Assembly: GCF_032917945.1 (NCBI RefSeq)
Contig: NZ_CP136624.1
Coordinates: 3,224,001-3,288,000, forward strand
From: Bradyrhizobium sp. sBnM-33
GTDB taxonomy: Bacteria; Pseudomonadota; Alphaproteobacteria; Rhizobiales; Xanthobacteraceae
Length of the DNA: 64,000 nucleotides
Reading direction: 5' to 3'
A program made the position numbers and the translations under genes. This document shows positions 30,336-63,697 of this stretch, piece by piece (positions within the stretch are counted from its first letter, which is position 1; each line of letters opens with the position of its first letter). The notes under the pieces are model-generated. The model was not told where the DNA came from. It saw only the letters and a list, made by a program, of their open reading frames with translations, and ran no database searches.

Positions 30336-30354
30336 AGACAAACGAATTCTATTG
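30336..30354 (+). promoter_or_regulatory. CAA-N3-AATT-N3-TTG dyad, site 1
   Basis: agacaaacgaattctattg, an imperfect palindrome, stands about 30 bp before the decayed lysR copy at 30384. The same relation holds for the intact lysR at 50269. Confidence 0.55.
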
Positions 30355-30383
30355 TCACTTAAATGCATTTTTCCGGATGTATG

Positions 30384-30545
30384 AGACCGGCATCGAGCTT
30401 GCCAGACCCTTTCCCGTCTCTCAGTACGGAGTGTCGTTAAGAGCGCTGATCGATTGATTGCCGACCAAACGACGGTCGGCGCACAGGCTCGCATCCTTGA
30501 GCAACAGCTCGGGGGACAGCTAGGAGCTTGGATTCACAAGCGCGT
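30384..30545 (+). pseudogene. Remnant of a LysR gene (sister of the one at 50269)
   Basis: The DNA matches the 5' end of the intact lysR at 50269: catcgagcttgccag against catcgagctcgccag at the start, then gccgaccaaacgacggtcgg and cttgagcaacagctcggg. The protein-level trace is ADRLIADQTTVGAQARILEQ then QLGG. Stops and indels break it, and the regulatory domain is missing. An IS5-type transposase tail follows within 20 bp, so the gene was probably cut by an insertion. Confidence 0.65.
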
Positions 30546-30559
30546 AGCAAATTCGGATT

Positions 30560-30645
30560 GATGCGAGCTAATGAAGGTCAGATAGTTGGCGGCGAGTTTG
30601 TCGTATCGGGCCGCGACACGGCTGCGCGACCGCGAAGTTGCCAAG
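30560..30645 (-). pseudogene. C-terminal tail of an IS5-type transposase
   Basis: On the minus strand the frame reads SRVAARYDKLAANYLTFISS, which matches the end of IS5/IS427-group transposases (RxATRYDKLAxNFL). No other transposase part and no terminal inverted repeat is recognised. It lies directly after the lysR remnant. Confidence 0.5.
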
Positions 30646-31327
30646 CGCTTGCGCGCAGAAACCAGCGCGGAGGCAGCGCATGTCATCCCGTCTACAGATT
30701 CCCGGCGCGGACACGACCTGCAACCGAATTGGAAGCACGCGCTCTGATCCTCGCCGCGAGTGTCGCCGTTGACTTTCCGCAGCGAATGCCTAAGTATTGC
30801 ATCATCATGTTGAGCTTAGCGACATTTCGTCGAGGCCTGTGTCACGCAGGCAATCTGATCGCGGGCATTTAGCCCCGAGCTCAGCGGGCGCCGTCGTATC
30901 CCGAGCTCGGGGACCATCACACCAAGCTGACTGAAGCGGGTCGCCACTTTGGTGGTCGATCGCCCAATAGCCGATACGGCGCATTCTTCAAAAGCTTTGT
31001 TCACCCGCTCCAGGCCGCACAGCCTGCTGGCGCGTGTCCGCAATCCAAGAGCCGCCGGACTAAGTCCGCTGCGGAGGAGGTGCGCTATGAACGGCGAATC
31101 GGACGCAACGCTCTCCAAAAAGCTAAGAACAGACGAGCAGCCGCCAACTTTCGGTTCGTTTCGCGTGAGGAGCGACAGCCAGAGCCGATGCAGCCGGGAG
31201 AGACCGTTCGGAAATTCCAGAGACCGCGAGCCAGCATGCAAGCCGGCGTCACTGGGACGACAATGATGACGATCCGGGTCCGACCGCTGCCTTAACTGCA
31301 GATTTCGAACAGGAATAGGAGATGATC
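30646..31327. other. No gene recognised
   Basis: Frames here are short or overlap on opposite strands (for example 30816-31241 minus, 31080-31295 plus) and show no domain. The AGGAATAGGAG at the right end is the ribosome-binding region of the next Rnk-like gene. Confidence 0.45.
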
Positions 31328-31753
31328 ATGATAACACAACGCAAGGCGATAGCCATTAGCGGTGAGATCAAGCCGTGCATAACGCTCACGGCCAAGGATT
31401 ACGAAGGAATCTCGCGACTCGCGCGAGCGGCAGCGACGAGGATGCCGGACCTAGTGTCGGTCCTTACCGAGGAGCTTGAGCGGGCGCACGTGCTTGCGGA
31501 TGGCCTTTCAGAGCAGACTGTGTGCATGGGTAGCGAAGTCGAGTTCCGTGATGACACGACGGGAAAGGTCCAGACCGTGATGCTCGTCTACCCGGGTGAT
31601 GCGGACATTTCGCAGGCAAAGATATCCATTCTCACCCCCGTCGGGGCCGCGCTGATCGGCCTCAGCGCCGAAGATTCCATCACCTGGGAAACACGGACCG
31701 GAGAAATTCGGCAATTGACCGTTCTTAAGGTCCGCGAGCCCCAGTTTGCCTGA
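31328..31753 (+). CDS. rnk: Rnk / GreA-C-domain protein (paralogue 2)
   Basis: 141 residues from the ATG at 31328; an ATG two codons earlier is too close to the GGAG. The N-terminal Rnk helix pair (ITLTAKDYEGISRLARAAAT, then LVSVLTEELERAHVL) is followed by the GreA/GreB C-domain with all family landmarks: MGSEVEFRDDTTGKVQTVML, VYPGDADISQAKISILTPVG, AALIGLSAEDSITWET. It is the most typical member in the window and is very similar to the broken copy at 61.9 kb. The protein should bind RNA polymerase; what it does there is not established in rhizobia. It is followed by speD after 80 bp. Confidence 0.9.
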   Translation: MITQRKAIAISGEIKPCITLTAKDYEGISRLARAAATRMPDLVSVLTEELERAHVLADGLSEQTVCMGSEVEFRDDTTGKVQTVMLVYPGDADISQAKISILTPVGAALIGLSAEDSITWETRTGEIRQLTVLKVREPQFA

Positions 31754-31833
31754 GGCTCGCGGCAACCGCCGCTGCCTGGCAGCGCCGGTCCATCTTACGT
31801 AACCGGCAGAGCATCTGCAACGTGGAGAATCGA

Positions 31834-32340
31834 ATGGAAAGCACGTCCCGCGTCAGCATGGCTGCACTCTCCAACCCTCTCGACATCAATCATGAAGAGG
31901 CCCGTTTGCGCCATGCCGATGGTGTTACTCCGCGCACGGCTTCTCATGTCATGCCAAGCGGCACCGTCCACGACCACTTCGTCGAGCGAGATGGCCTGCG
32001 CTTCGCCGGAACGCATCTCGTCATCGATCTCTGGGAAGCATCTAATCTTGACGACATCGAAGTAGTCGAGACGGCGCTGCGCGACGCCGCTGTGGCGGCG
32101 GGGGCGACGCTTCTTAAGATGGACCTTCACAGCTTCACGCCTGGCGGCGGGATCACGGGCGTGGCCGTGCTTGCGGAGAGCCACATCTCGATCCACACAT
32201 GGCCGGAGCGCGCCTACGCTGCCGTCGACGTATTCATGTGCGGTGACGCTGATCCGCATAAAGCCATCGGGGTGCTCAGGCACGCCTTTGGCCCCCGGAT
32301 GTTGACCGTCTCGGAGCACAGGCGAGGAGTAATGCCATGA
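31834..32340 (+). CDS. speD: S-adenosylmethionine decarboxylase proenzyme
   Basis: 168 residues from ATG 31834 with GGAG six bases upstream. The self-cleavage and active-site block is AESHISIHTWPE (E115, S116, H121): cleavage before S116 generates the pyruvoyl group. C136 in VDVFMCGD is the usual proton donor. The N-terminal ~45 residues exceed the small bacterial SpeD and are poorly conserved. The product, decarboxylated SAM, is the aminopropyl donor for the next gene product; the stop of speD overlaps the start of speE (ATGA), so the two are coupled. Confidence 0.93.
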   Translation: MESTSRVSMAALSNPLDINHEEARLRHADGVTPRTASHVMPSGTVHDHFVERDGLRFAGTHLVIDLWEASNLDDIEVVETALRDAAVAAGATLLKMDLHSFTPGGGITGVAVLAESHISIHTWPERAYAAVDVFMCGDADPHKAIGVLRHAFGPRMLTVSEHRRGVMP

Positions 32341-35359: not shown

Positions 35360-37367
35360 TCCCGGGTGCGTAAGTAATCCTCGGTGGTCATAGTCGGTGG
35401 GCGCGGCACCGCATGAGGATCGAAGCTTTCGCTGACGGCGGCCTCAACGCGGCAGTCTTCACACATCTTTACGACATCGATGCGCCGAGCATTAGCACCG
35501 GCAAACATCCAATGCTTTTCCTCAAGTGTGGCGACTACGCGTTCGATTGTACTTTCGTGCCGAACGGCTTGCCACATCCGATGCAATGGAAGGGATCCTC
35601 TTCCTTCAACACCCGCTGCGGTGCATTCCACGCTTGGAAATCGAAGCGGGGTTGCAGCGCAATGGCGTCCTCGGGACATGTCACTTCGCACAGCCCGCAT
35701 TGTACGCAGATGCTTTCAGTGAAGCGCAGCATTGCGCGGTCTGGATTGTCCGACAGCGCGCCGGTCGGACAAGCGTTCACACAGGAGTGACAGAGCGTGC
35801 AGCTATCGACATTCAACAACACGCCACCGAATGGCGCCCCGGGCGCAAGCGCCACGACAATGACGGGCGTTGGCGCCGCTAGGTGCAGTTCGCGAAAAGC
35901 GGTTTCGAGCAAGCCGCGCTTGGCGCCGCGCGGAACGAAGTTCGCGGGTTTCCGGGTTGCAACGCCAGCCGGCACTGCGTCCAGCATGGCAAGGAGTTGA
36001 TCGGGGTCATCGGTCTCGATGATGCGCACCAGCCCATCGCCGAAGCCGAGCGCTGCGACGCTGGTTTCCGACGTCTCAACAACCCGCCGCAGGCCGAGAG
36101 GATCGTGACTGGGTTTTGCCCGCGTCAGTAAACAGGCACCGGCTGCGCCGTAAGCGAACAGCGCAGCAATCGCTTCGGGTCCAACCTGCGTGACTTCGTT
36201 GACCCGGACCGGGAGCACATTTGCCGGCAGGCCGTCGCCGAACCGCGCCAGCGCGTCAATCAACGGAGCGCCGTTGTCGCCGTCATGAAACAGTACGACG
36301 GCATTGCTGCCGCCGGCCTTGCGATAGGCCTGCACAAGCGTGCGTAACCGTCGCATCAGCACGTCCGCGGCCGGCAGCGCATAGGATGCGGCTCCGGTCG
36401 GGCAGACCGCGGCGCAGGAGCCACAGCCTGCACAGACGGCAGCGTCGATTGCCACCGCGTTGCCGTTCGGCGTGATCGCGCCAGTCGGACAAAGATCAAG
36501 ACAACGCGTGCAGCCGGTGATTCCGGAGCGCGAATGGGCACAGAGCGATTCGTCGAACTGGACAAAGCGCGGCTTGTCGAACGTGCCGACCAGATGGCCA
36601 GCGTCCGCGATCATTTTTTCGACTGCGGCGCGGTCGCGGGGATCGGCGCATAGATAGCCGGGCCGCAATTCATGTGCGGGAAATAGCGGCCGGCCGCCGC
36701 TGATATCCAGCACGATATCGCAGGTCGAGACCGCGCCATTGCGCGGGGCGCCGAACTCCAGCCGGCGGCGCGACGAAGGCGCGGGAAATGCATAATCGTC
36801 GATCGTGAGTTCAAACTGCCCGAGATGCCCACGAGCATGGCGCACGCTACCCTTCAGGACTGGAAATTCGTTTGAGTGGCGAGGCGTCACGTCGCCAGGC
36901 TTGGTCAGAAGCACCGTGATGTCGAGGCGGTCGGCGAGTCGGCGACCGACCTCGATCGCTGCCTCGTCGCGGCCATAGATCAGGGCGACGCCGCGGCTCT
37001 CGAGCGTCACCAGCGCGACGGGCGGCGTATCCTCGCCTGCCGCCGCGATCAGCGCTGCGGCCTTTGGGCCAGCCGCGGCCACATCCTTCGACCACCCCGC
37101 GGTTTCTCGAATGTTGACGAAGGTGAGCGCTGAGGAGGGGACGAGATCTTCCGCCACTTCCCGGAACAAGGGTGCTTCCTGGGTACACGCGACGGTCATA
37201 GGTACGCCATCGGCGAGTGCCGCCTTGAACCGGTCGATTTCGAGCCCGCAGAGCTGGTCGGCCTGGGTGATCTGACCCGAACAGGCACGGGCAATCGCTC
37301 GCGCGTCCACCGGCATCGTTTTCTCGCAGTTGCAGATCATCAGATGAGGCGCGGTATCGACCGTCAT
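35360..37367 (-). pseudogene. Polyferredoxin-like 4Fe-4S protein of the formate dehydrogenase locus, frameshifted near its end
   Basis: 610 residues are open from ATG 37367 (GGGAGGAAAACG upstream). Four ferredoxin motifs are visible: CTRCLDLCPTGAI, CAGCGSCAAVCPTGAA, CTLCHSCVNACPTGAL, CVQCGLCEVTCPEDAI. After CIGCGKPFGTK the frame stops; the natural end STIERVVATLEEKHWMFAGA, then RIDVVKMCEDCRVEA is found one frame over. One A is missing in an A-run at about 35551-35556. Such a gene usually stands between DUF3306 and torD in rhizobial formate dehydrogenase operons and presumably carries electrons or assists assembly. Here it is 3 kb away and inverted. About 65 C-terminal residues with more cysteines are lost. 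Confidence 0.82.
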
Positions 37368-40448: not shown

Positions 40449-40977
40449 GGGAGGAAGGGGACAGACAATAGTGAGTGAGTCTCCACCCCTTGGGTATGGA
40501 AGACGAGCCGGAATAGCCGACCGGCGCAGCAAGCCCCTCAACCGAGAGCCTTGATGGATCGGACGCGGAAACTCCGCAAGCATTTTCAGGGTGATCGAGC
40601 GCGGCCGCGCTCGAGGCCAATGTCGAGCTTTCCTGCGTGGCCCAGACAGTGTTAGGCCGCCTCGCATCATCCGCATTGACGGAATGCACCGGGTAGACTG
40701 GTACGGGAACCACGCTGATCTGGCCGAATTCGGCTGGTCCGTTGCACGCAGCAGGCGACCGTAGGAAGCAGTCTTTAAGAAATACCTCCAGCTCAGCGCC
40801 CGGAATATCTCCAACAAGAAAACTGCACTCAATTCTCAATAATATTCGGTTGTCTCATCGATCCCTCGATGAGACGCTTCCGACGTCGTCTTGTTACGCA
40901 TGTGCATCAAGTGAGCAATTCTGCACAAGCGGCAGCGACGAGCGCACAATCTGCGCATTTGGTGAGAGGCTAACGGT
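40449..40977. other. Non-coding gap inside the formate dehydrogenase operon
   Basis: No plus-strand gene is found. Two overlapping minus-strand frames of about 150 codons (to 40839 and 40832) have no domain and look like chance. In related loci the 4Fe-4S polyferredoxin-like gene occupies this place. The right end is AT-rich (taataatattcggttg) and may hold a new promoter for torD-fdhA. Confidence 0.5.
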
Positions 40978-41820
40978 ATGACCGTGCTTATCCGCACTGG
41001 CACGCCAAAAGAGGAAAATGAAACGAGCGACCGGAGACCCGAGGAGGCTGTTCGGGCAATTGGTGGTGTTCTCAACCCCGCAGATCTGATCGAACCGCCT
41101 CAGCTTCCCGTGTCGAAGTTGTCTAAGGTTCCGGCGCGTACGCTGTCGGTTGAAGCCGTGATGGATCTCGCGAGCGAGATCTTGTGGCCGGAAGTCGGCC
41201 ATGAACAACCCGTCGAGATCGACGAGTTCGATGCGCACCGTGCCCAGGAATATTTACTTCTCGCCATGCTACTGAGCCGTTCGCCAGATGCAGCCACGCT
41301 CAATCGGATTGCTAAGCTTCGCGGCGATGCGACCCCGCTTGGCCTCGCGCATCTGGCCCTTGCGCAGGCAGCCGGCACTGCGAGCGCGGAAAGGATCGCG
41401 CGCGAGTACTTCACCCTTTTCATTGGAGTTGGACGCGGCGAGTTGCTTCCCTACGGCTCATACTACCTCACCGGCTTTCTCAACGAACGGCCGCTGGCGC
41501 GATTGCGCGAGGATCTTCGCGCGCACGGTATCGAACGCGCCGAAGGACAGGTGGAGCCGGAGGATCACGCCGCTACTCTTTGCGAGATCATGGCCGGGAT
41601 GGCCTGCGGTCAATTCCCAACGATCGCTAGAATGCAGCAGGAATTTTTCGAGAAACACCTTGCCTCGTGGACTGGTCGTTTCTTCGCTGATTTGGAGGGA
41701 GCCGAGGCGGCCGAATTTTATCGTCAGGTGGGGACGCTTGGCAGGCTGTTCCTGGAGACCGAGACAAAAGCGTTCCGGCTTCCCACCAGGTCAGAGGTGC
41801 GTAACCCGGAGGACGTGTGA
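40978..41820 (+). CDS. TorD/DmsD-type chaperone for formate dehydrogenase
   Basis: 280 residues behind GAGAGG. Similarity to TorD-family proteins begins near residue 78 (FDAHRAQEYLLLAMLLSRSP) and includes EYFTLFIGVGRGELLPYGSY, YLTGFLNERPLARLREDLRA, then EPEDHAATLCEIMAGM. Such chaperones bind the Tat signal and the apo-molybdoenzyme until the cofactor is loaded. The first ~75 residues are an extension not usual for the family; ATG 41161 is an alternative start. It overlaps the following small Tat gene by one base. Confidence 0.85.
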   Translation: MTVLIRTGTPKEENETSDRRPEEAVRAIGGVLNPADLIEPPQLPVSKLSKVPARTLSVEAVMDLASEILWPEVGHEQPVEIDEFDAHRAQEYLLLAMLLSRSPDAATLNRIAKLRGDATPLGLAHLALAQAAGTASAERIAREYFTLFIGVGRGELLPYGSYYLTGFLNERPLARLREDLRAHGIERAEGQVEPEDHAATLCEIMAGMACGQFPTIARMQQEFFEKHLASWTGRFFADLEGAEAAEFYRQVGTLGRLFLETETKAFRLPTRSEVRNPEDV

Positions 41821-42017
41821 TGCATACGGTCGATAAGCCACTCGGACGTCGTCAGTTCCTTCGTGCGTTTGGTGCCGGAGCGGCGGTCGCCGCCGTGTCG
41901 CCGCTCGTTCTGGAGGCGAAAGCCGATAGCGAGAACAACGATGAAAAGCGCAAGTCTCGCTACAAGGAAAGCGACCACGTGAAGGCCTATTATCGCGTCA
42001 ACCGTTATCCGAGCTAA
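41820..42017 (+). CDS. Small Tat-signal protein of the formate dehydrogenase operon
   Basis: 65 residues from ATG 41820, overlapping the torD stop (TGATG), with CCCGGAGG upstream. A twin-arginine motif GRRQFLRAFGAGAAVAAVSP is followed by a short polar tail (SRYKESDHVKAYYRVNRYPS). Proteins of this form regularly stand just before the FDH3 alpha gene in rhizobia and may serve as a structural or targeting subunit. 13 bp separate it from fdhA. Confidence 0.88.
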   Translation: MHTVDKPLGRRQFLRAFGAGAAVAAVSPLVLEAKADSENNDEKRKSRYKESDHVKAYYRVNRYPS

Positions 42018-42030
42018 AGGAGAGGCGACC

Positions 42031-44949
42031 GTGCTGATCAAGAGAACCGAACGCGAAAAGCACCGCGGCTCGTTCGCCGCCTTCACCAGTGGCTCGAACA
42101 AGCATCTGGATCGTCGTGCCTTCTTGCGCCGTTCGGGCCTTGCCGCAAGCGGCCTCGCCGCCCTGGGAACCATGCCGCTCACGAGCGTGCGAAAAGCGAA
42201 GGCCGGTCCGCCGCCCGCGCCGGGCGCAGTGGTCACCATCCACAAGAACATCTGTACGCATTGCGCTGTTGGTTGCACGGTTACTGCGGAAGTATCCAAT
42301 GGCGTATGGATCGGCCAGGAGCCGAGTTGGGACAGCCCGATTAATAGGGGCTCGCATTGCGCAAAGGGCGCTTCGGTCCGCGAACTGGTGCACAGCGAGC
42401 GCCGGCTAAAATATCCGATGAAGTTGGTCGGCGGGCAGTGGACTCGCATCAAATGGGATCAAGCCATTGATGAGATCGGCGACAAGATGCTGGAGATCCG
42501 TCGCAAGTCCGGGCCAGAATCGCTCTATTGGATGGGCTCGGCGAAATTCTCCAACGAAGGCGCTTATCTCTTCCGAAAGATTGCGGCGTTCTGGGGCACC
42601 AACAACAACGACCATCAGGCGCGCATCTGTCATTCGACCACCGTCACCGGTGTAGCCAACACTTGGGGCTACGGCGCGATGACCAACAGCTTCAATGACG
42701 TCCGCAACTCCAAGACCATGGTTTTCATGGGTTGCAACCCGGCAGAAGCACACCCGGTTTCGCTGCAGCACATGCTTGAAGGCAAGGAGCTCAACAGGGC
42801 AAACTTCATCGTCATCGATCCGCGACTGACGCGCACCGCCGCCCATGCGAACGAGTATGTCCGCATCCGTCCCGGCACCGACATTCCGGTGCTGATGGGG
42901 ATGATGTGGCACATCTTCAAGAATGGCTGGGAGGACAAGGAGTTCATCAAGCAGCGCGTCCACGGTTTCGAAGAAGCGCGCAAGGAAATTGACAAGTGGA
43001 ATCCTGAAGAGGTCGAACGCGTCAGCGGGGTTCCCGGCGCGCAGCTCGAGCGCGTTGCCAAATTGTTCGCGACCGAGAAGCCATCGACCCTGCTCTGGTC
43101 CATGGGCCAGACCCATCACACGGTCGGCACCGCGAATGTTCGCGCCAGCTGCATGTTATTGTTGGCGACGGGTAACGTCGGCAAGCCAGGGACCGGCGCC
43201 AACATTATCCGCGGCCATGACAATGTGCAGGGCGCCACCGACATTGGCGTCGATACCGTGACGACGCCGTTTTATTACGGTCTCAGCGAAGGTGCATGGA
43301 AACATTGGAGTCGTGTCTGGGAGGTCGACTACGATTATCTGGTCTCCCGCTTCGATTCCAAAAAGATGATGGAAACTGCGGGCATTCCCCTGACGCGCTG
43401 GTTTGATGCCGTTCTTCTGCCTAGGGACCAGGTTGATCAGAAGGACAACGTGCGAGGCATGTTCGTGCAAGGACACGCGAGCAACAGCATCACGCGTATC
43501 CCGGAATCAATGAAAGCGTTGCCGCAGCTTGATCTGCTGGTCGTCGCCGATCCGCATCCCACCACCTGGGCCTCGCTGGCCGTGGCGGCCGGGCGCAAGG
43601 ACAACATGTATCTGCTGCCGATTTGCACCCAGTTCGAAACCTCCGGCTCGCGCGTTGCGTCCAATCGCTCGCTGCAGTGGGGCGAACCGATCGTCAAACC
43701 AACCTTCGAGTCCAAGGACGATTATCAGGTTCTGTACTTAATAGCGAAGAAGCTCGGCTTCGCCGACCAAATGTTCAAGAACATCAAGGTTGAAGGGGAC
43801 CGTCCGGTCCCCGAGGACGTCCTGCGCGAAATGAATCGGGGAAGCTGGAGCACGGGCTACACCGGACAGTCGCCGGAGCGGCTGAAGGCACACATGAGGA
43901 ACCAGCACAAGTTCGATCTGGTGACGCTGCGCGCGCCCAAAGACGATCCGGAGGTTGGCGGCGACTTCTACGGTCTGCCCTGGCCATGTTGGGGCACGCC
44001 GGAGCTCAGGCATCCCGGCTCCCCCATCCTCTACAACAGCGACGCCGCTGTCATGGACGGCGGAAATGGATTCCGTGCGCGCTTTGGAGTGGAGCGCAAC
44101 GGCCAGACGCTGCTGGCCGAGGGTTCATATCTGCCGGGTTCGGAGATTAAGGACGGCTATCCTGAATTCACGATGGGTGTTTTCAAGAAATTGGGCTGGG
44201 ACAAGGATCTTACGGCCGCAGAACTGGCGACCATTGAAAAAGTCGCAGGCAACCCCGGTAATATTGACACGGTGTCATGGTCGACGGATCTTTCCGGCGG
44301 CATCCAGCGCGTCGCGATCAAGCACGGTTGTTCGCCCTACGGCAACGGCAAGGCGCGGACGGTCGCCTGGAATTTGCCCGATCCAGTCCCGGTGCACCGC
44401 GAGCCGATTTATTCGCCGCGCGTCGATCTGATCGCACAATATCCGACGTTGCCCGACGCGAAGCAGTTCAGACTGCCGAATATCGGCTTCTCGGTACAAA
44501 AGAGCGCTGTCGACAGAGGCATTGCCAGGGCGTTCCCGCTGATCGTTTCGTCGGGTCGCCTTGTGGAGTACGAGGGCGGCGGCGAGGAGACCCGCTCCAA
44601 CAGGTGGCTCGCCGAGTTGCAGCAGGACATGTTCATCGAGATCAGCCCGGCGGATGCGGCCGAGCGCGGAATCAAGGATGGTGGTTGGGTCTGGGTCACA
44701 GGAGCTGAGAACAGCGCCAAGGCGAAGATGAAAGCGCTGGTGACCGAACGTGTCGGCAAAGGCGTGACCTGGATGCCCTTCCATTTTGGGGGCTGGTTCG
44801 CCGGCGAGGATCTGCGGTCCAGATATCCACAGGGCTCCGATCCGATAGTGCTCGGCGAAAGCGCCAACACGATCATGACTTACGGCTACGACCCCGCAAC
44901 CGGCATGCAGGAGCCCAAGGTCAGTTTGTGTCAGATCAGTGCGGCATAA
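42031..44949 (+). CDS. fdhA: Formate dehydrogenase alpha subunit (molybdopterin, Tat-exported)
   Basis: 972 residues from GTG 42031, with AAAGGAGAGG upstream. Tat signal: DRRAFLRRSGLAASGLAALG (about 26-45). 4Fe-4S ligands C75, C78, C82 and C110 (CTHCAVGC then HCAKGA). The molybdenum or tungsten ligand is C200 in ARICHSTTVTG, where E. coli FdnG has selenocysteine. Bis-MGD binding blocks (FMGCNPAEAHPVSLQHMLEG, MGQTHHTVGTANVRASCMLL) and the C-terminal MopB domain are complete. It oxidises formate to CO2 in the periplasm. Genes for the beta and gamma subunits follow with short gaps. Confidence 0.95.
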   Translation: MLIKRTEREKHRGSFAAFTSGSNKHLDRRAFLRRSGLAASGLAALGTMPLTSVRKAKAGPPPAPGAVVTIHKNICTHCAVGCTVTAEVSNGVWIGQEPSWDSPINRGSHCAKGASVRELVHSERRLKYPMKLVGGQWTRIKWDQAIDEIGDKMLEIRRKSGPESLYWMGSAKFSNEGAYLFRKIAAFWGTNNNDHQARICHSTTVTGVANTWGYGAMTNSFNDVRNSKTMVFMGCNPAEAHPVSLQHMLEGKELNRANFIVIDPRLTRTAAHANEYVRIRPGTDIPVLMGMMWHIFKNGWEDKEFIKQRVHGFEEARKEIDKWNPEEVERVSGVPGAQLERVAKLFATEKPSTLLWSMGQTHHTVGTANVRASCMLLLATGNVGKPGTGANIIRGHDNVQGATDIGVDTVTTPFYYGLSEGAWKHWSRVWEVDYDYLVSRFDSKKMMETAGIPLTRWFDAVLLPRDQVDQKDNVRGMFVQGHASNSITRIPESMKALPQLDLLVVADPHPTTWASLAVAAGRKDNMYLLPICTQFETSGSRVASNRSLQWGEPIVKPTFESKDDYQVLYLIAKKLGFADQMFKNIKVEGDRPVPEDVLREMNRGSWSTGYTGQSPERLKAHMRNQHKFDLVTLRAPKDDPEVGGDFYGLPWPCWGTPELRHPGSPILYNSDAAVMDGGNGFRARFGVERNGQTLLAEGSYLPGSEIKDGYPEFTMGVFKKLGWDKDLTAAELATIEKVAGNPGNIDTVSWSTDLSGGIQRVAIKHGCSPYGNGKARTVAWNLPDPVPVHREPIYSPRVDLIAQYPTLPDAKQFRLPNIGFSVQKSAVDRGIARAFPLIVSSGRLVEYEGGGEETRSNRWLAELQQDMFIEISPADAAERGIKDGGWVWVTGAENSAKAKMKALVTERVGKGVTWMPFHFGGWFAGEDLRSRYPQGSDPIVLGESANTIMTYGYDPATGMQEPKVSLCQISAA

Positions 44950-44961
44950 GGAGGCGATACC

Positions 44962-48960: not shown

Positions 48961-49031
48961 CTCTCCCTTTCGACGATGCGGGGGCGCATTGGTGGGCAGA
49001 TTACGTCGCCTCAAACTAACTCCGCATAGCT

Positions 49032-49647: not shown

Positions 49648-50061
49648 TCATGGCGTATTCTGTTTGCCATCTGCGTCGAATTGCTTCAGGTAAGCGATCA
49701 CGTCTGATATTTCCTGACTTTTCTTCAGGCCTGAAAAGATCATCTTTGTGCCAGGTACGATCTTGGCCGGCGCGCGAAAATAAGCGGATAACGTCCGCTC
49801 GTCCCACACCAAACCCGAATTCTTGTTCGCTGAGGAGTAGCTATAGTTTGGATACTGACCGGCTGGCCGGCCAACGACGCCGTTTAGCACCGGTGCGATT
49901 CCATTTTGAGCGTTAGGACCGATTTGATGACAGGCCGTGCATTTCTTAAAGACCAGAGCCCCGGCATCAGGGCTCCCCGCAGGGATGGCAGCATCCTGGC
50001 CTCGAGCTGAGCCGACCGCGATAAGCATTAGTGTAAGCACTAGCATCGAGATTTGGTTCAA
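49648..50061 (-). CDS. Cytochrome c, small soluble class I
   Basis: 137 residues with a cleavable signal peptide (MLVLTLMLIAVGSARGQDAA). Heme attachment is CTACH (C41, C44, H45), and the distal methionine is probably M107 in VPGTKMIFSG, followed by the C-terminal helix DVIAYLKQFDADGK. The insert (PVLNGVVGRPAGQYPNYSYS) is characteristic of the cytochrome c2/c550 type. It acts as a periplasmic electron carrier. The gene diverges from lysR at 50269; a CAA-N3-AATT-N3-TTG site lies between them. Confidence 0.92.
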   Translation of the reverse strand: MNQISMLVLTLMLIAVGSARGQDAAIPAGSPDAGALVFKKCTACHQIGPNAQNGIAPVLNGVVGRPAGQYPNYSYSSANKNSGLVWDERTLSAYFRAPAKIVPGTKMIFSGLKKSQEISDVIAYLKQFDADGKQNTP

Positions 50062-50268: not shown

Positions 50269-51117
50269 ATGGATATCGAGCTCGCCAGGACTTTTATAGA
50301 GATCGTTTCCACCGGGAGCTTCATCAAAGCCGCCGACCGTTTGCATGTCGCACAAACGACGGTTAGCGCACGCGTGCGCCTCCTTGAGCAGCAGCTCGGA
50401 CGACCGCTTTTCGTTCGCAATAAAGCCGGCGCAACTCTCACCCCGGCGGGTGAACAATTCCTTCGTTACGCTCCGACATTCGTACAGTTGTGGCAGCGCG
50501 CGAAACAGCAGGTCGCGGTACCTGAAGGACACCGCGCAGTTTTGACTGTTGGAAGCGAGGTCAGCTTGTGGCAGCCGCTTCTACTCGAGTGGGTCAGGAT
50601 GATGCGGCGCTCGCATCCGGACATAGCGCTTCGCGTACACGTCGACGTTCCTCAAGATCTGATTACGCATGTAGCGGCCGGACTCGTGGATATCGCGATC
50701 ATGTACGCGCCCCACCATCGACCTGGTTTAGAGATAGACTTGCTGATTGAGGAAAAGCTCGTGCTGGTAACAACCGACCTCAAGACGTATCGCGCAAATG
50801 ATCCAAAATACGTTCACGTCGAATGGGGACCGGATTTTTCCCTTCATCATGCGGTAAGTTTTCCGGACACAACCCCGAGCCTGGTGGCCAACCTTGGTCC
50901 GCTAGCGCTCAATTATATTCTGTCAGAGGGTGGTTCCGGTTACGTCCGAATGAATGCAGCTCAGCCCCATCTAGCATCAGGAGAACTGCATCTGGTTCCA
51001 GGCGCGCCTCACTTCTCTTTCCCGGTCTATGCCACGCACTCGGCGAACGTAGATGCCGATACATTGGGTGCAGCTCTCACCGTGTTGCGCGCTGTCGCAA
51101 AGGTAGAAGTAGAATAA
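50269..51117 (+). CDS. LysR-family regulator (intact member of three copies)
   Basis: 282 residues. The helix-turn-helix domain is MDIELARTFIEIVSTGSFIK then AADRLHVAQTTVSARVRLLE (residues 1-60). The effector domain is recognisable by VLTVGSEVSLWQPLLLEWVR, LVDIAIMYAPHHRPGLEIDL and GGSGYVRMNAA. Two decayed copies of the same gene lie at 30384 and 60286, each preceded by the same upstream dyad. The effector is unknown. As the only intact copy it is the natural candidate to bind these dyads. It diverges from cytochrome c. Confidence 0.92.
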   Translation: MDIELARTFIEIVSTGSFIKAADRLHVAQTTVSARVRLLEQQLGRPLFVRNKAGATLTPAGEQFLRYAPTFVQLWQRAKQQVAVPEGHRAVLTVGSEVSLWQPLLLEWVRMMRRSHPDIALRVHVDVPQDLITHVAAGLVDIAIMYAPHHRPGLEIDLLIEEKLVLVTTDLKTYRANDPKYVHVEWGPDFSLHHAVSFPDTTPSLVANLGPLALNYILSEGGSGYVRMNAAQPHLASGELHLVPGAPHFSFPVYATHSANVDADTLGAALTVLRAVAKVEVE

Positions 51118-51311: not shown

Positions 51312-51527
51312 TCAGCCGTTAGTCTTATTCAGAGCCGCGCCTTTATCCATCGCGATGTGGTCGGTCTTATCGCTCTGGATTTCATACTGCGGTTCATCCT
51401 TGCTGGCGCGGTGCATATGTCCTTTGTAGTTAACATCCTTGAGGTGGACCCTGATAATCGTGCCGCTCACGTATCCTGCTTCCGAATTCCAGGTCACGTG
51501 ATCGCCAACTGCGAACCGCTTTCCCAT
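51312..51527 (-). CDS. DUF2945 (HVA1/Tudor-like) small protein
   Basis: 71 residues from ATG 51527 with CGGAGAG upstream. The sequence KRFAVGDHVTWNSEAGYVSG then TIIRVHLKDVNYKGHMHRAS and PQYEIQSDKTDHIAMDKGAA is the complete DUF2945 family pattern, an SH3/Tudor-like small barrel. Members are often stress-induced in rhizobia; a nucleic-acid link is only suggested by the fold. A dyad site lies 170 bp upstream. Confidence 0.9.
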   Translation of the reverse strand: MGKRFAVGDHVTWNSEAGYVSGTIIRVHLKDVNYKGHMHRASKDEPQYEIQSDKTDHIAMDKGAALNKTNG

Positions 51528-51938
51528 GAAGTACTCTCCGTACGATTTTAGGTGTGAGATTCGCAACGCGCCGGATTCCGTAGAGTTCCAGGCGCCCTAG
51601 CGTCGCGCCACACAGAACGCGTCCAGAATAACTCGGGGCGCACTTCCGGCCGCCCGTTATCAACCACGCAGCATGAAGTGTGTTATTAAATCTCAACTAA
51701 ATTCGTTTGTCTGAAGTATGCGTTAGGCTCACGATGCTAGTGGCCGACGATGTGCTTAAGCAGCAGGGCGTTGGCGTAAATGTCAAGCCAACGCGTCACT
51801 GCATGACCACCCGCGGCGTGCACAAGCCCGGCACAGATCTGATCACTAGCCGGATGTTGGGCTGCTTCCGCACAGCGCGCTGACCCGACAGGAGTTTCTC
51901 TGCGTGGCCGTTCGATAGCGGCCTCTGAAGGAGGGAAC
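51528..51938. other. Divergent intergenic region with dyad site
   Basis: The region between DUF2945 and the Rieske/FAD gene contains the dyad site at 51694-51712 and otherwise no frame with a known domain. The GGAGGG before ATG 51939 is the ribosome-binding site of the oxidoreductase. Confidence 0.5.
51694..51712 (-). promoter_or_regulatory. CAA-N3-AATT-N3-TTG dyad, site 3
   Basis: On the minus strand agacaaacgaatttagttg. It lies between the divergent DUF2945 and Rieske/FAD oxidoreductase genes and could serve either. Confidence 0.55.
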
Positions 51939-53465
51939 ATGGTGGAAGAAAGAGCCAAGTCCAGTGGTCCGGACCTTACGCAAGGCATCGCGCTGAGCAT
52001 GTTCACGAACGAGACCCTACTTGGGCATGTCGACGATCAGGATGTTCTGCTGGTACGCGTCGGCCCGGAGATCTTCGCCGTCGACGCGCATTGCAGTCAC
52101 TATCACGGACCGCTCGCCGAAGGGCTCGTGGTCGGCGACAGCATCCGCTGCCCCTGGCGGAACGCCTGTTTTGATTTGCGCACCGGGGAAGCAACCCGCG
52201 CACCGGCGCTCACTCCGCTCGCGGTCTGGCAGATCGAGTACGAAGGCGATTGCATCTTCGTTCGGCAAAAGCGCGAACAACCGAAACCGCTTGGCAAGGG
52301 ACCCGTTGATGCGCCCGGCAAGATCGTGATCGTCGGCGGCGGAGCAGCGGGATTCGCTGCGGCGGAGATGCTGAGGCGGCAGGAGTTTCGCGGCAGCATT
52401 GTCATGCTGAGCAACGATACCGTGTCGCCAGTCGATCGGCCGAACCTGTCAAAGGAGTATCTCGCTGGCACCGCGCCGGAAGAATGGTTGCCGTTGGGTC
52501 CAGGCGGCTTCTACGCTGAAGCCGGTATCGATCTGCGGCTCAACACAGAGGTCCTCTCGATCGACACCAAGGCACGCAACGTCGTCATCGCAGGTGGCGG
52601 CGATATCCCCTTCGACCGCTTACTGCTGGCGACAGGTGCGGAGCCGGTGAAGTTGCTGATCCCGGGCGCGGACCAGCCGCACTTCCACACGCTGCGCTCG
52701 CTTGGGGATTGTCGGGCGATCATCGGGTCTCTGAACGGCGCACGCCGCGCTCTCGTGATCGGTGCCAGCTTCATCGGCCTCGAAGCCGCGGCGGCATCGC
52801 GTGCACGAGACATCGAAGTCCACGTCGTTGCGCCGGAGCAACGGCCGATGGAGCGCGTGCTTGGACCCAATATGGGAGAGTTCGTACGCGCGCTGCACGA
52901 AGACCAGGGCGTTATCTTTCATCTCGGTGATACCGTGGCCGAGATCGATGGCAAACGTGTGATACTGAAAAGCGGTGGCGTATTGGAGACTGACGTTGTG
53001 GTCGTCGGCGTCGGCGTGCGTCCGCGGCTCGGCCTAGCCGAACGGGCTCGTCTATCGCTGGAGCGCGGAGTTACCGTGAACGCCTATCTTGAAACCAGCG
53101 TCGCCGGGATCTATGCGGCGGGTGATATCGCGCGCTGGCCCGATCCGCATTCAGGCCAAAATATCCGGGTCGAGCATTGGGTGGTGGCGGAGCGTCAGGG
53201 ACAAACCGCCGCTCGGAACATGCTGGGACAGCGTGAGGCGTTCGATGCGGTGCCATTTTTCTGGAGTAAGCATTACGACGTAAGGATCAACTACGTCGGT
53301 CACGCGGAGACGTTGGATGAGATTGCTCTCGACAGTAGCATCGCGGCCAGGGACTGCCTGCTGAAGTACAAAAGCAAGAGTCGCGTGCTTGCGGTCGCCT
53401 CGATCTACCGCGACCTTGCCAGCCTGCAGGCCGAACTAGCCATGGAGCGAAACGCGATGCGCTGA
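51939..53465 (+). CDS. Rieske-domain / FAD-dependent pyridine nucleotide-disulfide oxidoreductase
   Basis: 508 residues behind GGAGGG. The N-terminal Rieske-like domain has the first ligand pair C52-x-H54 (HCSHYHGPL), but the second motif reads CPWRNACF (C71, R74) where CPWHxACF is expected, so one histidine ligand is replaced by arginine. The FAD/NAD part is complete: IVGGGAAGFAAAEMLRRQEF (133 onward), LLATGAEPVKLLIPGA, VIGASFIGLEAAAASRARDI, IYAAGDIARWPDP. This architecture is that of AIF-like ferredoxin reductases. Without the fourth ligand a 2Fe-2S cluster is unlikely, though the flavin part should work. A frameshifted sister gene lies at 47.4-49.0 kb with normal ligands. Confidence 0.9.
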   Translation: MVEERAKSSGPDLTQGIALSMFTNETLLGHVDDQDVLLVRVGPEIFAVDAHCSHYHGPLAEGLVVGDSIRCPWRNACFDLRTGEATRAPALTPLAVWQIEYEGDCIFVRQKREQPKPLGKGPVDAPGKIVIVGGGAAGFAAAEMLRRQEFRGSIVMLSNDTVSPVDRPNLSKEYLAGTAPEEWLPLGPGGFYAEAGIDLRLNTEVLSIDTKARNVVIAGGGDIPFDRLLLATGAEPVKLLIPGADQPHFHTLRSLGDCRAIIGSLNGARRALVIGASFIGLEAAAASRARDIEVHVVAPEQRPMERVLGPNMGEFVRALHEDQGVIFHLGDTVAEIDGKRVILKSGGVLETDVVVVGVGVRPRLGLAERARLSLERGVTVNAYLETSVAGIYAAGDIARWPDPHSGQNIRVEHWVVAERQGQTAARNMLGQREAFDAVPFFWSKHYDVRINYVGHAETLDEIALDSSIAARDCLLKYKSKSRVLAVASIYRDLASLQAELAMERNAMR

Positions 53466-55506: not shown

Positions 55507-55788
55507 TCAGAGCTCTAGCACTTGTTGCGGATCGCTAAGCATTCCCGCTGCAAATCCAATGAATGCATACGCGCCCGAAACATCCCACAAGGTAATGCCG
55601 ACGCCATCACGATCGGACGACAAGCACCACGCGGCCAGTGCCACGATGGCTGAGAACGCTAGTGCGATCACACTCATCGATTCCAGCAGAAGAGGTGTTC
55701 GAGTCAGAAGCAGAAGGTCGGTAGGGGGGATCGCGACGGCCAACAAAAGGACTGCCGAGATCAGATACGGGCGTTTCCGGGTAAACAT
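55507..55788 (-). CDS. Small three-helix membrane protein, unknown function
   Basis: 93 residues with TGGAGGCGTC ahead of ATG 55788. Three hydrophobic segments (YLISAVLLLAVAIPPTDLLL; SVIALAFSAIVALAAWCLSS; DVSGAYAFIGFAAGMLSDPQ). The ending WDVSGAYAFIGFAAGMLSDP recalls a family of short rhizobial membrane proteins. A dyad site (site 4) lies 80 bp upstream. Confidence 0.7.
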   Translation of the reverse strand: MFTRKRPYLISAVLLLAVAIPPTDLLLLTRTPLLLESMSVIALAFSAIVALAAWCLSSDRDGVGITLWDVSGAYAFIGFAAGMLSDPQQVLEL

Positions 55789-57533: not shown

Positions 57534-57555
57534 CGATACTGCTCCCGTATCTCGA

Positions 57556-58523: not shown

Positions 58524-59036
58524 CTAGGTAACAAACGTTTCAAGCTGCTCGACCTGTTTACGGTGCAGCAGCAGCAAGTACATAAGCTTCGCATTCAATT
58601 TTGAATCGAAGATGTTCAGGACGGCTTCCTCAATCATATCGGCCAGCCTAGCCTGGTTGCGGCTTGCGAATCCGATTGTCCGTCCGAAGCTGCAATCGCT
58701 GTTAGGAACAGCGGTTGTCCTCTTGCGACGAATTATGTTGGCGCCACCTCTTGCGGCCATCTCCTTTTTGAGAAGGATGCAAATCGCGGCCTGAGCCAGT
58801 TCGGACTCAAAAGCGAGGTCTGCAACCTGAGAGTCGGCCGTGCGTCCGATTGCTGCATATGCAGTGACGCCGATGCGTTCACTTTCAAGAAGCTCTTTGA
58901 GAAAATTCAGTATCTCTTCCCTAGACCAATAACCGAGGTAACTGGGGTCGCCCGCATTCGTCCTGCGAGGAGAGGACGCGAAATGTTGGGTCGTGTCGTC
59001 TAAGTCCGCTTGTTGGCCTAACCGGGCTTTCCGCAT
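58524..59036 (-). CDS. Ferritin-like (DUF6306-type) helical protein
   Basis: 170 residues. Helix patterns EEILNFLKELLESERIGVTA, ADLAFESELAQAAICILLKK, and ARLADMIEEAVLNIFDSKLN then MYLLLLHRKQVEQLE form four long helices with Glu and His spaced as in ferritin-like folds. The exact family (DUF6306 is my best guess) is uncertain and a bound metal is not proven. The first 35 residues are polar and variable. Confidence 0.55.
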   Translation of the reverse strand: MRKARLGQQADLDDTTQHFASSPRRTNAGDPSYLGYWSREEILNFLKELLESERIGVTAYAAIGRTADSQVADLAFESELAQAAICILLKKEMAARGGANIIRRKRTTAVPNSDCSFGRTIGFASRNQARLADMIEEAVLNIFDSKLNAKLMYLLLLHRKQVEQLETFVT

Positions 59037-59677
59037 GATTTCGTTTCCCTGCGAGAACGAGATGAGAATCTGCAGCCGTCGTACTCTTCAGACAGAGTGT
59101 TGCTTGGCTGCTGCGCACAACTACTTGCTATTCAGCCAAGTTCTACAAGCGAAAAGTATTGTCAGTTTGCATCAAGAAAGTTGTTACTTGAAAGAGTTGG
59201 AGTGGCGCAGTGCGCGATATGCGTATGTTACGCGGGCGCCGTCTTCCACCTCGCGGGCGGAGCGAGCGGACCGGGCTCATTGGGTGACGCTGTGGACACG
59301 CTGACGTGCAATTGGTCAGCGGCGTTGATGAACATCGCGCCGATAACAGTGGCCGATAGCATTGAAGGAGCGCGCATAAAGATGATGAACCTTCATGCTA
59401 GCAGGTCCAAGTCATTAGCGGAGTGATAGTACGACGGTGAGGCGTCTGATCGATCAGCACTCGTTATCGACGTTAGCAATTCCGGTGTGCCTCAAAGCAT
59501 TGGTGTCAAATTGGATCGAGCGGGATGTTGGATATCGGCGCTGCTTTCGTAGCCATAGGCCTACTCATGATCTTCACGATATCGACAATTGGATTGGCCG
59601 CGACGTAACGACGGGCGATGGCCCTGTTCGGCTAGGCCAAAGGCTGACATTGACCAGCAAGAGGCCTCCAGGCGGCT
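59037..59677. other. No gene recognised
   Basis: Plus-strand frames up to 109 codons have no domains. The region is somewhat AT-richer on its left side. Nothing here is supported as coding. Confidence 0.5.
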
Positions 59678-59944
59678 TTACTCGGCGGGCGGCTCCCTCC
59701 CTTTCCTAAACGGATCGGCCGCATCGTCGTGACCGCTGCGGCTGCTGAAAAACATGAGGGCCATCAGACCGCATCCAATGAGAAGCGAAAAGAATGTGCC
59801 GAGACCGAGGGCGATCCAGCCGTGCTTATCCATCACGACGTCGCCGGAGGAGTTCCATACCATCGTTGCCCATATGCCAGTGAGAATGAGCAAGGCAACG
59901 AGAACTGCGATAAGAGCGATTTGGCCCGGGCTAAGTCGTCGCAT
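59678..59944 (-). CDS. Small two-helix membrane protein
   Basis: 88 residues. Helices IALIAVLVALLILTGIWATM and WIALGLGTFFSLLIGCGLMA are joined by a short loop, with a polar tail DDAADPFRKGREPPAE. The segment KHGWIALGLGTFFSLLIGCG is familiar from conserved rhizobial proteins without a known role. GGCGCTACCC precedes the ATG, so the ribosome-binding site is weak. Confidence 0.65.
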   Translation of the reverse strand: MRRLSPGQIALIAVLVALLILTGIWATMVWNSSGDVVMDKHGWIALGLGTFFSLLIGCGLMALMFFSSRSGHDDAADPFRKGREPPAE

Positions 59945-60242
59945 GGGTAGCGCCTTTCTGTTCCCATCTCCGACAGGCGAGTTGAACCAGCCGAGGCATT
60001 CGCTCCTCAGCGAAATATGGATCAGGACGGGGCGGTTCGCCTATTTGGGATACTTTGGTCATGTACCTATGGAGGTTGTGGTCGATACCACCTCCAAGTG
60101 ACCCAGCTGTTCCTCTACAATACGTTCGCTGGCAAACAAGCTTAAGCCCACACAATGGCAGCTGGAGCTGAGCAAGTCTCGATCGACAACAAAAGCCTGC
60201 GCACGAATGAAGATGCCAATAGTCTCTCATCGAAGGATGCAG

Positions 60243-60266
60243 CATGCAAATGAATTTAATTCACAT
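60243..60266 (+). promoter_or_regulatory. Diverged CAA-N3-AATT-N3-TTG site before lysR remnant
   Basis: caaatgaatttaattcacattt matches the site at 50221 (caaacgaatttcattgacattt) at 19 of 22 positions. It stands the same distance before its decayed lysR copy. Confidence 0.45.
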
Positions 60267-60285
60267 TTGAATGCAACCGTCATGC

Positions 60286-60775
60286 TAGATGAGGTCCCTG
60301 GACATCGAATTGGCTGGGACGTTTTTGGAGATCGCCTCGACGGCAAGCTTCATCAAGGCTGCCGAGTGACTACATGTCGGTCAAACAATCATCAGCGCTT
60401 GGGTACGCTTGAACAGCTTGGGCGTCCGCTTTTTGTCCGGAACAAAGCCGGAGCGTCTCTGGCCCCAGCCGAACAGCAATTTCTGCGTTTCGCACCAATC
60501 TTTGTGCAACTCTGGCCACGTGCACCAGCAAGTGGCCGTGCCAGCCGGAAATCGCGCGGTGCTTGCCGGTGGGTAGCGAGGTCCCTGTGGCAGTCTCTCT
60601 TGCTCAACTGGGTTCGGCGGATGCGACGTTCATACGCTCTTCGCGTTCATGTCGATGTCCACAGGATCCCATCACTCATGTAGCAGCGGGTTGTCGACAT
60701 CACGTGTGCGCCTCAACACCGCCATGACTAAAGATCGATCTGGTAATGGAAGAGGATTTGTCCTGCATGGCTACG
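60286..60775 (+). pseudogene. Decayed LysR gene (second remnant)
   Basis: DNA and protein traces follow the intact gene at 50269 over about 490 bp: ctggacatcgaattgg (start codon changed to CTG), LEIASTASFIKAAE then a TGA, QLGRPLFVRNKAGASLAPAE, QQFLRFAPIFVQLW, and after several frame changes LRVHVDV and KIDLVMEEDL. At least one stop and several indels are present, and the last third is gone. It is about as old a duplicate as the one at 30384 but better preserved. Confidence 0.75.
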
Positions 60776-60782
60776 ATCCCGA

Positions 60783-62343: not shown

Positions 62344-62485
62344 CTCAATTTCCCTGATTCATGCTCGCCAAGTCGCCGTTTTGCTAGGTAAGCATCGGCG
62401 GTCGGACGGCACCGAAGTCATTACGTTATCTTCCTTAGGCGGTCTGCACTGCGGCTTCCGGCGTTAGCTGCCGGCTGATTGCTTG

Positions 62486-62638
62486 TTAAGCGTTGGTCCG
62501 ACGATCAGTCAGGGCGTTCTTGGCCCCGCTGGGGCTCCGACGAGGTCTCGGTGCGCTGAATCCATCGGGGTCAAAAAACAACACCAGGCCTAGCCACAAA
62601 ATCAGGACAGTCGCTGTTAGTATTAGCAACATTGACAT
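62486..62638 (-). CDS. Single-helix membrane peptide
   Basis: 50 residues from ATG 62638 (GAGGAG upstream; another ATG lies one codon before). One helix, LLILTATVLILWLGLVLFFD, then a polar basic tail (RPRRSPSGAKNALTDRR). No family recognised; small proteins of this form are common in rhizobia. Confidence 0.5.
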   Translation of the reverse strand: MSMLLILTATVLILWLGLVLFFDPDGFSAPRPRRSPSGAKNALTDRRTNA

Positions 62639-62745
62639 CATCACTCCTCTATCACGCGAGCTACGACCGTTCCGCCTGGCAGGCGTGCAACGACGCGTGC
62701 CAAGCGGATCGAGTAGGTGAGATTGCAAAAATTGGATAGAATCAT

Positions 62746-62770
62746 CCCGGCCGGCGTAAAGCCGTCCGGG
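62746..62770. terminator. Strong hairpin without clear U-tract
   Basis: cccggccggc and gccgtccggg pair over ten positions with one mismatch around GTAAA. It lies 147 bp beyond the stop of the exported-protein gene on the minus strand, where it could end that transcript. No run of T follows on either strand. Confidence 0.35.
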
Positions 62771-62916
62771 CTACCCGCCAGCTTGCAGGAGGCCCACGCG
62801 AGATTGTAGGGGGAGCGCTTTAGACATCATCATACCTACGAGCTAATCATGAAATCAGAAACGTCAAGTCGTCGTTATTTCACTTCCACGCTCGTACAGA
62901 TCGTCTGTATCGAAGC

Positions 62917-63603
62917 TCAGGAAAATTTATCGGCAAACTGCTTTGCTAGCGCTTCAGCGGTAGCATCGGCAATTTGATAGATGTGATCTTTCATCTCTTC
63001 CCAGGTGTGAGCCTCGGCTTCGTACTTGCGACCTTTCAATTGTTGGATCTGCTGGATGTGATGACCGCCATGCGCCAAAAGAAGGTTGTTAACTGCATTC
63101 TTCGGCAAAAAAGGGTTTGCTTTGCTTAAGAAGCTTGCAATCTCCTCAGCGTTCGACGTCAGAGATTGAGTTGCCGTGCCTTGCTTGGTAGCGTCGTCTG
63201 CGACCGTCGCCACAAGGTAGGCCTTTACAGCACCATAGTGCCCCGCGAGGAGCTTGAAGAAGGTGTCCTTGGCCGCTGCTCCGTAAAATGGTTCGATGGT
63301 CGCGGCGATGGACTGCGCGTTGGTGACGGCTTGTTGCTCTGCTATTGTTGCGGCGGCGTCGTGCTTTTCGATCGTGGCTACCGAGACCGCTCTTACCCAA
63401 AAGATATGTCCTATCCAAAGATCTCGAAGAAGCGCTGCGGTCTCGAACGTTTTATCGGTGCGGGCCTTTCTTTTGGCGCGGTGAGAATGTCTGCTGGCCG
63501 CGAAGGCACTTCCGGAGAGTGGCACTAACGCTGCGATAGCGGCACCGACGGTTAAAAGCTCGCGACGATCGGTGAGGGCCAGTCGTATTACGTTCCGTGA
63601 CAT
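62917..63603 (-). CDS. Exported helical protein, unknown function
   Basis: 228 residues from ATG 63603 with GAGGAGG seven bases upstream; the frame is open 27 codons earlier without such a site. A signal peptide (RELLTVGAAIAALVPLSGSA, then FAA) is followed by long amphipathic helices: LLRDLWIGHIFWVRAVSVAT, ATIEPFYGAAAKDTFFKLLA, AHGGHHIQQIQQLKGRKYEA. Histidines and glutamates (GHIFWVRA, HGGHHIQQ) are spaced as in periplasmic four-helix metal-binding proteins, but no family name is certain. A dyad site (site 5) lies 76 bp upstream. Confidence 0.75.
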   Translation of the reverse strand: MSRNVIRLALTDRRELLTVGAAIAALVPLSGSAFAASRHSHRAKRKARTDKTFETAALLRDLWIGHIFWVRAVSVATIEKHDAAATIAEQQAVTNAQSIAATIEPFYGAAAKDTFFKLLAGHYGAVKAYLVATVADDATKQGTATQSLTSNAEEIASFLSKANPFLPKNAVNNLLLAHGGHHIQQIQQLKGRKYEAEAHTWEEMKDHIYQIADATAEALAKQFADKFS

Positions 63604-63678
63604 TGAAGCCTCCTCGGACGGATCAGCACCGTTTGGCTTGAGTGGTTTAAGAGCTTGTATTTCACCAAGGGTATGATC

Positions 63679-63697
63679 GGACAAACGAATTTAATTG
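63679..63697 (+). promoter_or_regulatory. CAA-N3-AATT-N3-TTG dyad, site 5
   Basis: ggacaaacgaatttaattg is the best match to the symmetric form. It lies 76 bp before the start of the exported-protein gene (minus strand). The rest of the window, to 64000, shows no supported gene. Confidence 0.55.

Follow-up and report, generated by a model that had tools for sequence, protein, structure and literature searches.

Which regulator, if any, acts through a short dyad that recurs across one gene island of Bradyrhizobium sp. sBnM-33? The stretch analyzed, hereafter the window, is 64,000 nucleotides of contig NZ_CP136624.1 (positions 3,224,001 to 3,288,000, forward strand), and coordinates are window positions unless a genome position is named. 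The first-pass annotation had read the dyad CAA-N3-AATT-N3-TTG at six places and assigned it to the product of an intact lysR gene in the same window. Herein, the motif is interpreted by sequence comparison as the operator of this LysR, which is predicted to bind it and to control the island that holds it through activation and autorepression. A probability of roughly 0.78 is given to this interpretation. That such a regulon exists is very likely, and the most economical binder for it is this LysR. The regulator is located as follows.

50269 to 51117, plus strand: intact LysR-type regulator, 282 aa, HdfR-like, with Pfam HTH_1 and LysR_substrate

Both domains score above their cut-offs, as expected for a LysR family member, and the substrate domain spans profile positions 2-84 of 209.

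The motif was counted in the window with at most one mismatch to CAAN3AATTN3TTG. Six matches were found against 1.1 expected, and none of 100 shuffles reached six. The sequence GACAAACGAATT has exactly six copies in the 9,184,954-base genome, four in the window and two at 7.567 and 7.576 Mb. All six places noted earlier are present as read, four of them as exact CAAN3AATTN3TTG. The dyad is therefore real; what did not hold is its symmetry and extent, since the AATT core is conserved across species only in part and the dyad is one half, on the target side, of an asymmetric 44-bp element composed of CAAACGAA-N5-ATTG and GCA-N7-TGC.

The 44-bp consensus, GACAAACGAATTTAATTGACATTTGAATGCAATTTTTATGCTAT, holds about 45 bits and was derived upstream of 55 of 68 foreign LysR orthologues with at least 55% identity. 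The orthologues were drawn from 80 named loci (80 of 266 loci were kept) and 296 family genomes, and include near-duplicates at the site (L148 equals L068 and L157 equals L096). The matrix was trained only on lysR promoters of foreign genomes, with orthologues below 55% identity excluded and no sequence of the window's own genome used. This foreign-only matrix finds 14 window places above 4 bits. The six noted sites score 24.8 to 41.1 bits, the partial match noted near 13152 reaches 33.5 bits, and the matrix adds sites at 10115, 40811, 59144, 38138 and 37653 together with weak or doubtful ones at 58138 and 61269. The places are listed below.

10115 to 10158, plus strand: operator before the leftward histidine kinase/CBS/VKOR-SPW-epimerase genes, 43.3 bits
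13156 to 13199, plus strand: operator before the gene of a 538-aa protein (11442-13058, minus), 33.5 bits
30337 to 30380, plus strand: operator between a 120-aa ORF (29856-30218, minus) and a lysR relic, 39.1 bits
37653 to 37696, plus strand: weaker site with second dyad TCA-N7-TGC, before a 4Fe-4S protein gene (35535-37367, minus), 14.9 bits
38138 to 38181, minus strand: weaker site with second dyad TCA-N7-TGA (T-N11-A), before rightward genes from 38256, 21.1 bits
40811 to 40854, minus strand: operator before the formate dehydrogenase operon with a lysR relic opposite, 44.6 bits
50219 to 50262, plus strand: operator between the cytochrome c gene and lysR, 41.1 bits
51668 to 51711, minus strand: operator between the Hva1_TUDOR (DUF2945) gene and the Rieske-FAD reductase gene, 29.5 bits
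55869 to 55912, plus strand: operator before a 93-aa ORF (55507-55788, minus), 24.8 bits
58138 to 58181, plus strand: doubtful site, 6.6 bits
59144 to 59187, plus strand: weaker site before the DUF6306 gene (58524-59036, minus), 21.6 bits
60245 to 60288, plus strand: operator adjoining a lysR relic, 39.3 bits
61269 to 61312, minus strand: doubtful site, 5.2 bits
63680 to 63723, plus strand: operator at the start of a 255-aa ORF (62917-63684, minus), 34.4 bits

In 20 Markov background sequences of 64 kb, 0.3 places per sequence scored above 4 bits and none above 10. The same matrix scan gave no site above 4 bits in 90 kb covering 26 other LysR loci of this genome. The two halves of the element were also compared. 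When 96 non-lysR sites were picked on the first 18 columns only, the second half of 81 of them exceeded the 99.9th percentile of the background. On the other side of the 60245 site no recognizable target was seen, and 59931-60245 contains no Pfam match. The sites at 37653 and 38138 lie about 0.4 kb apart in opposite orientation, each facing its own gene, and their second dyads, starting as TCA-N7-TG, come closer to the classic T-N11-A.

The concentration of the element in LysR-bearing loci and genomes is observed directly. Besides the 55 foreign promoters with a site directly upstream of lysR, a site above 12 bits is present at some position in 64 of the 68 fetched stretches. A sequence-only model, R1, was built from 47 foreign sites after L095 and L152 had been dropped from the 49 distinct training sites. 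The genome-wide scan proposed earlier was then run with R1 on the 9.18 Mb genome (E limit 10, with scoring of 150 among the 846 first-look candidates) and gave 16 matches, 12 at 3.234-3.310 Mb, nine of these in the window, and four at 7.567-7.576 Mb. The two stretches total about 85 kb, under 1% of the genome, and each surrounds one intact lysR, so the sites are not equally frequent over the genome; equal frequency was the outcome named in advance as speaking against the regulon. The top window match of R1 is the 40811 site; the weaker sites at 37653, 38138, 58138, 59144 and 61269 fall below its limit.

R1 was also applied to the 296 family genomes with stricter filters than in the single-genome search and a match limit of E 0.05. 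All 16 genomes with this LysR (at least 61% identity) have a match, versus 2 of the 280 others. The LysR proteins of these 16 stand at 61% or more, and those of the next group at 47% or less. Of the two exceptions lacking a LysR of at least 61%, G066 has its match at a distance of about 0.3 kb from a 45% homologue, and the G200 match has E 0.04. Eight of the 16 genomes had supplied an R1 row and two more have an identical row, which leaves six independent ones (G000, G036, G040, G112, G144 and G236); the matches in the five foreign ones differ by at least nine bases from every R1 row. The promoters, the confinement within the genome and the co-occurrence across genomes strongly support, by comparison, the earlier proposal that this LysR is the probable binder.

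The LysR occurs in nodulating and soil bacteria, chiefly Alphaproteobacteria, where its gene lies on chromosomal contigs and on large plasmids. A Mesorhizobium sp. B2-1-8 plasmid (L217) carries two LysR-type genes at 3933-4778 and 15001-15852, each with an operator, one of which is common to LysR and 5-formyltetrahydrofolate cyclo-ligase/ctaD. In 24.8 kb of a Paracoccus denitrificans plasmid whose LysR is at 51%, no site exceeds 5 bits. Near sister LysR homologues with 43-47% identity (L161, L164, L165, L167, L172, L205) lie elements resembling CAAACGAA, whose second dyad, judged by eye, is of the ATCG type. This suggests a related system with its own, weaker-variant operator.

The polarity and the promoter spacing of the element are likewise seen directly. 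Polarity was counted with ORFs of at least 120 aa starting within 250 bp of a site, as called by a crude ORF caller. With 20 bits as the lower limit, 100 non-lysR sites were assessed: the CAAACG side alone has a gene in 46 of them, and the other side alone in 10. Three annotated plasmid records contain 17 sites above 5 bits, and for 13 of these an annotated gene lies at most about 215 bp away on the CAAACG side. A target -10 box (N-A-N-N-N-T, offset 18-23) follows at a fixed distance: 61 of 100 non-redundant non-lysR sites carry A at +19 together with T at +23, and the same A/T pair at 49 other offsets has a mean of 4.3 and a maximum of 11. This box stands 17 bp from TTGNCN, which complements the CAA end; the latter is therefore taken to be the target -35. 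A second site is thus placed at the target -35, as in LysR operators. With +1 taken about 7 nt past the -10, GCA-N7-TGC would be centered near -65 and CAA-N10-TTG near -40.

The other side of the element carries the predicted promoter of lysR. In 33 of 55 orthologues, the lysR ATG lies 49-52 nt after the site start. Within these 33, TTGACA is exact in 25 and within one mismatch in 30, and TGCTAT is exact in 23 and within one mismatch in 29. These positions place the lysR ATG at about +1. In the window, the 50219 site carries the predicted lysR -35 and -10, and the ATG follows 50 nt after the site start, so the transcript is predicted to be leaderless. An overlap with the regulator's own promoter, another mark of LysR operators, is therefore found. 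In the other 22 orthologues TTGACA within one mismatch is absent (0 of 22), and CAAACGAA and GCA-N7-TGC are kept in most. Since the dyads are kept where the lysR TTGACA is absent, the operator and the lysR promoter are separable.

The following mechanism is proposed. GCA-N7-TGC (sometimes TCA-N7-TGA) would be the anchoring recognition site, centered near -65 of the target start. CAAACGAA-N5-ATTG would be the activation site, whose CAA end complements the target -35 core (TTGNC) with the -10 17 bp further on. On the lysR side, ATTGACA is the predicted lysR -35, TGCTAT overlaps the recognition site, and the ATG would lie at about +1. Because the element carries the lysR promoter, the bound regulator would repress its own leaderless transcript, and with signal it would activate the gene on the CAAACG side. 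The site polarity would thus predict negative autoregulation together with control, probably activation, of the other side. Autoregulation had been proposed earlier from sites before all three lysR copies then recognized. Sites at the decayed copies give no evidence of it, because a dead gene needs none. Judged from the targets, the signal may be guessed to be formate, respiratory or redox stress.

Several observations weigh against LysR control through this element. No good site lies directly upstream in 13 of the 68 orthologues, although one of these (L150) has a frameshifted lysR with a 56.5-bit site near its start that was missed by the upstream step. Among LysR proteins below 50% identity, 13 of 35 loci hold a site above 12 bits (4 of 21 in L125-L145 and 9 of 14 in the sister group L161-L174) and 22 do not. 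Of the 100 non-lysR sites, 36 have no ORF on either side and eight have one on both. The target -10 A/T pair is present in only five of the 12 listed window sites (10115, 40811, 50219, 51668 and 60245). The outer bases of the recognition dyad are G-N11-C in 46 of 100 sites and T-N11-A in only 4 of 100, no covariation was detected within this dyad (p 0.75 at targets, p 0.26 at lysR sites), and the intact window lysR itself has a poor one, TTA-N7-TGC. Lastly, the sites and lysR are physically linked, so an island passed on together with a different regulator could explain why they occur together.

This last point leads to the idea that another island regulator binds the sites and also controls lysR, which is considered quite improbable. 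The observed association of LysR and sites is one of linkage, weaker sites occur near sister LysRs too, and G066 and G200 were matched without a LysR of at least 61%. However, sites in these loci are found most often at the lysR promoter, and the one there is usually the best; the sister LysRs, while keeping the CAAACGAA element, have a different second dyad by eye. Such a difference is expected if LysR is the binder, because regulator and site would change together. A larger share of doubt, still on the unlikely side, goes to binding by LysR that chiefly represses the targets and releases them on signal. The CAA end does coincide with the target -35, and by covering this core it would keep the targets chiefly repressed. 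Against this, PMC4834489 gives a dyad near -65 combined with a second site near -35 as the layout usual for activation by LysR regulators, and the target -10 logo keeps only A and T, which suits a promoter that needs an activator.

Operator function of any kind would be dispensed with if the sites were mere shared promoters or debris of duplicated lysR promoters. The -35 cores at both ends and the three window sites beside lysR relics agree with this, but both dyads are kept at non-lysR sites and in most lineages without the lysR -35, and about 45 bits exceeds what a promoter alone needs; it is held to be very improbable. The promoter consensus of the general stress regulator EcfG is GGAAC-N16/17-GTT. 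Membership of the island in the EcfG regulon, with the LysR motif incidental, would account for the plentiful stress-type genes (Usp, DUF488, Rnk) and can hardly be credited, as the consensus is not enriched in the window (4 found versus 2.9 expected). Activation by LysR with autorepression is therefore retained as the preferred interpretation.

Under this interpretation, respiratory and redox genes are predicted to be under this LysR, including formate dehydrogenase and a cytochrome oxidase subunit. The principal candidate targets in the window are as follows.

5934 to 10146, minus strand: histidine kinase, CBS protein and VKOR-SPW-epimerase, an operon inferred from spacing
40978 to 46633, plus strand: nitrate-reductase-delta-like chaperone (Pfam Nitrate_red_del), formate dehydrogenase (FDH) alpha, FDH3 beta and FDH gamma (NCBIfam)
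49648 to 50061, minus strand: cytochrome c (Pfam Cytochrom_C)
51939 to 53465, plus strand: Rieske-FAD oxidoreductase
62917 to 63684, minus strand: 255-aa protein without Pfam match, with relatives beside sites in L063 and L066

FDH3 beta and FDH gamma score above the NCBIfam cut-offs, and FDH alpha, at 455 bits, is under its cut-off of 666. The DUF2945 gene named in the first-pass annotation is present at 51312-51566 (minus strand) as Pfam Hva1_TUDOR, which we take to be the renamed family. The formate dehydrogenase and kinase operons were not on the list of that annotation, and the targets lie mostly on the CAAACG side. Other window genes on that side are those of the 538-aa protein, the 120-aa ORF, the 4Fe-4S protein, the genes from 38256, the 93-aa ORF and the DUF6306 protein. 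Beyond the window, a COX1 gene (Pfam; cytochrome oxidase subunit I) lies beside the site at genome position 3308107. The CAAACG-side genes of the plasmid records include FAD-dependent oxidoreductases, ctaD, 5-formyltetrahydrofolate cyclo-ligase, transaldolase, GreA/GreB, a universal stress operon and DUF5602. Elsewhere, Rieske-FAD reductases, COX1, XdhC, flavodoxin/FAD reductase, CBS-BON proteins, gluconate dehydrogenase subunit 3 and VKOR-SPW-epimerase are found on this side.

An ancient association of the site with Rieske-FAD promoters was also considered. The homologue search gave 72 matches in 71 genomes, equal to 30 loci, one being the window's own gene; the set omits a G038 copy that adjoins LysR and a site. 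The idea is not supported because the 29 foreign loci lack a site, their best score being -4.7 bits. Near the cytochrome c gene, a second Rieske-FAD reductase (47390-49014) looks broken, since it is split into two minus-strand ORFs, 48112-49014 and 47390-47935.

Copies of lysR in different states of preservation were compared. The genome holds a second intact lysR at genome positions 7570451-7571290, 79% identical to the window copy. Its start is preceded, at a distance of about 34 bp, by an exact CAAACGAATTTAATTG; cross-talk between the two intact copies may occur. The closest named orthologues are from B. vignae (85%) and B. macuxiense (82%). Decayed copies had been noted before as two and are present as three, at 30.4, 40.7 and 60.3 kb.

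30409 to 30522, plus strand: lysR relic 1, tblastn 55% over 38 aa, E 5e-6
40621 to 40725, minus strand: lysR relic 2, residues 238-278, just after the operator, tblastn 39% over 41 aa, E 0.005
60298 to 60781, plus strand: lysR relic 3, frameshifted, 82% nucleotide identity over 572 bp (60225-60765) to the 7.57 Mb copy

The persistence of sites at the relics may be owed to the divergent gene, most plausibly at 40.8 kb, where the formate dehydrogenase operon lies. A short minus-strand stretch at 59303-59332 resembles lysR residues ~18-27 and is possibly a fourth, tiny relic.

It is tentatively proposed that the regulon grew as whole lysR-operator modules were copied to positions beside new genes; the surplus lysR copies would then have decayed, leaving their operators under one master copy. 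The window may show the stages of this process, with one intact module, three with lysR relics and sites without lysR. If true, a mobile island could in this way place respiratory and stress genes that are otherwise unrelated under a single sensor. The regulon also suggests that operators outlive regulator genes, which gives a handle on regulon growth.

Compared with known systems, the predicted regulon is new and its deduced layout matches the classic LysR geometry. No publication on CAAACGAA or this LysR motif was recognized in the open-access listings searched, subscription journals being mostly outside that scope. FdsR-type LysR regulators govern formate dehydrogenase. They share with this system a LysR beside formate dehydrogenase genes and differ in that the enzyme here is of the membrane FDH3 type (NF038355) and many targets are unrelated to formate. 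PMC4834489 describes, for LysR-type regulators, a recognition dyad near -65 of the target start and a second site near -35. The classical divergent arrangement in that text agrees with the present one in both positions as predicted here and in the overlap with the regulator's own divergent promoter. In contrast to the non-conserved sequences described there, the second site here is strongly conserved. Further differences from classical LysR systems are the many targets in ~76 kb, G-N11-C being commoner than T-N11-A, and the predicted leaderless lysR.

HdfR of Escherichia coli/Salmonella is the best NCBIfam model for this LysR (134 bits), and the closest PDB chain is 6wn5. The score of 134.3 bits against NF002946 is below the HdfR equivalog cut-off of 240 bits. 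HdfR is tied to gltBD and motility (PMC2984483) and to std (PMC6173445), and none of gltBD, motility or std was seen among the targets here. No HdfR binding consensus appears in the portions available of PMC7567609, PMC2984483 and PMC6173445, and HdfR is absent from the main text of a Proteobacterial regulon survey (PMC5343134). The element offers a precise, testable predicted operator for an uncharacterized HdfR-like regulator.

Two other features of the window were recorded. At 20162-24516 a baeRF-family protein adjoins aconitase, with no site above 4 bits nearby. At 15265-16251 an E1-E2 cation ATPase is present only as an N-terminal piece of 328 aa.

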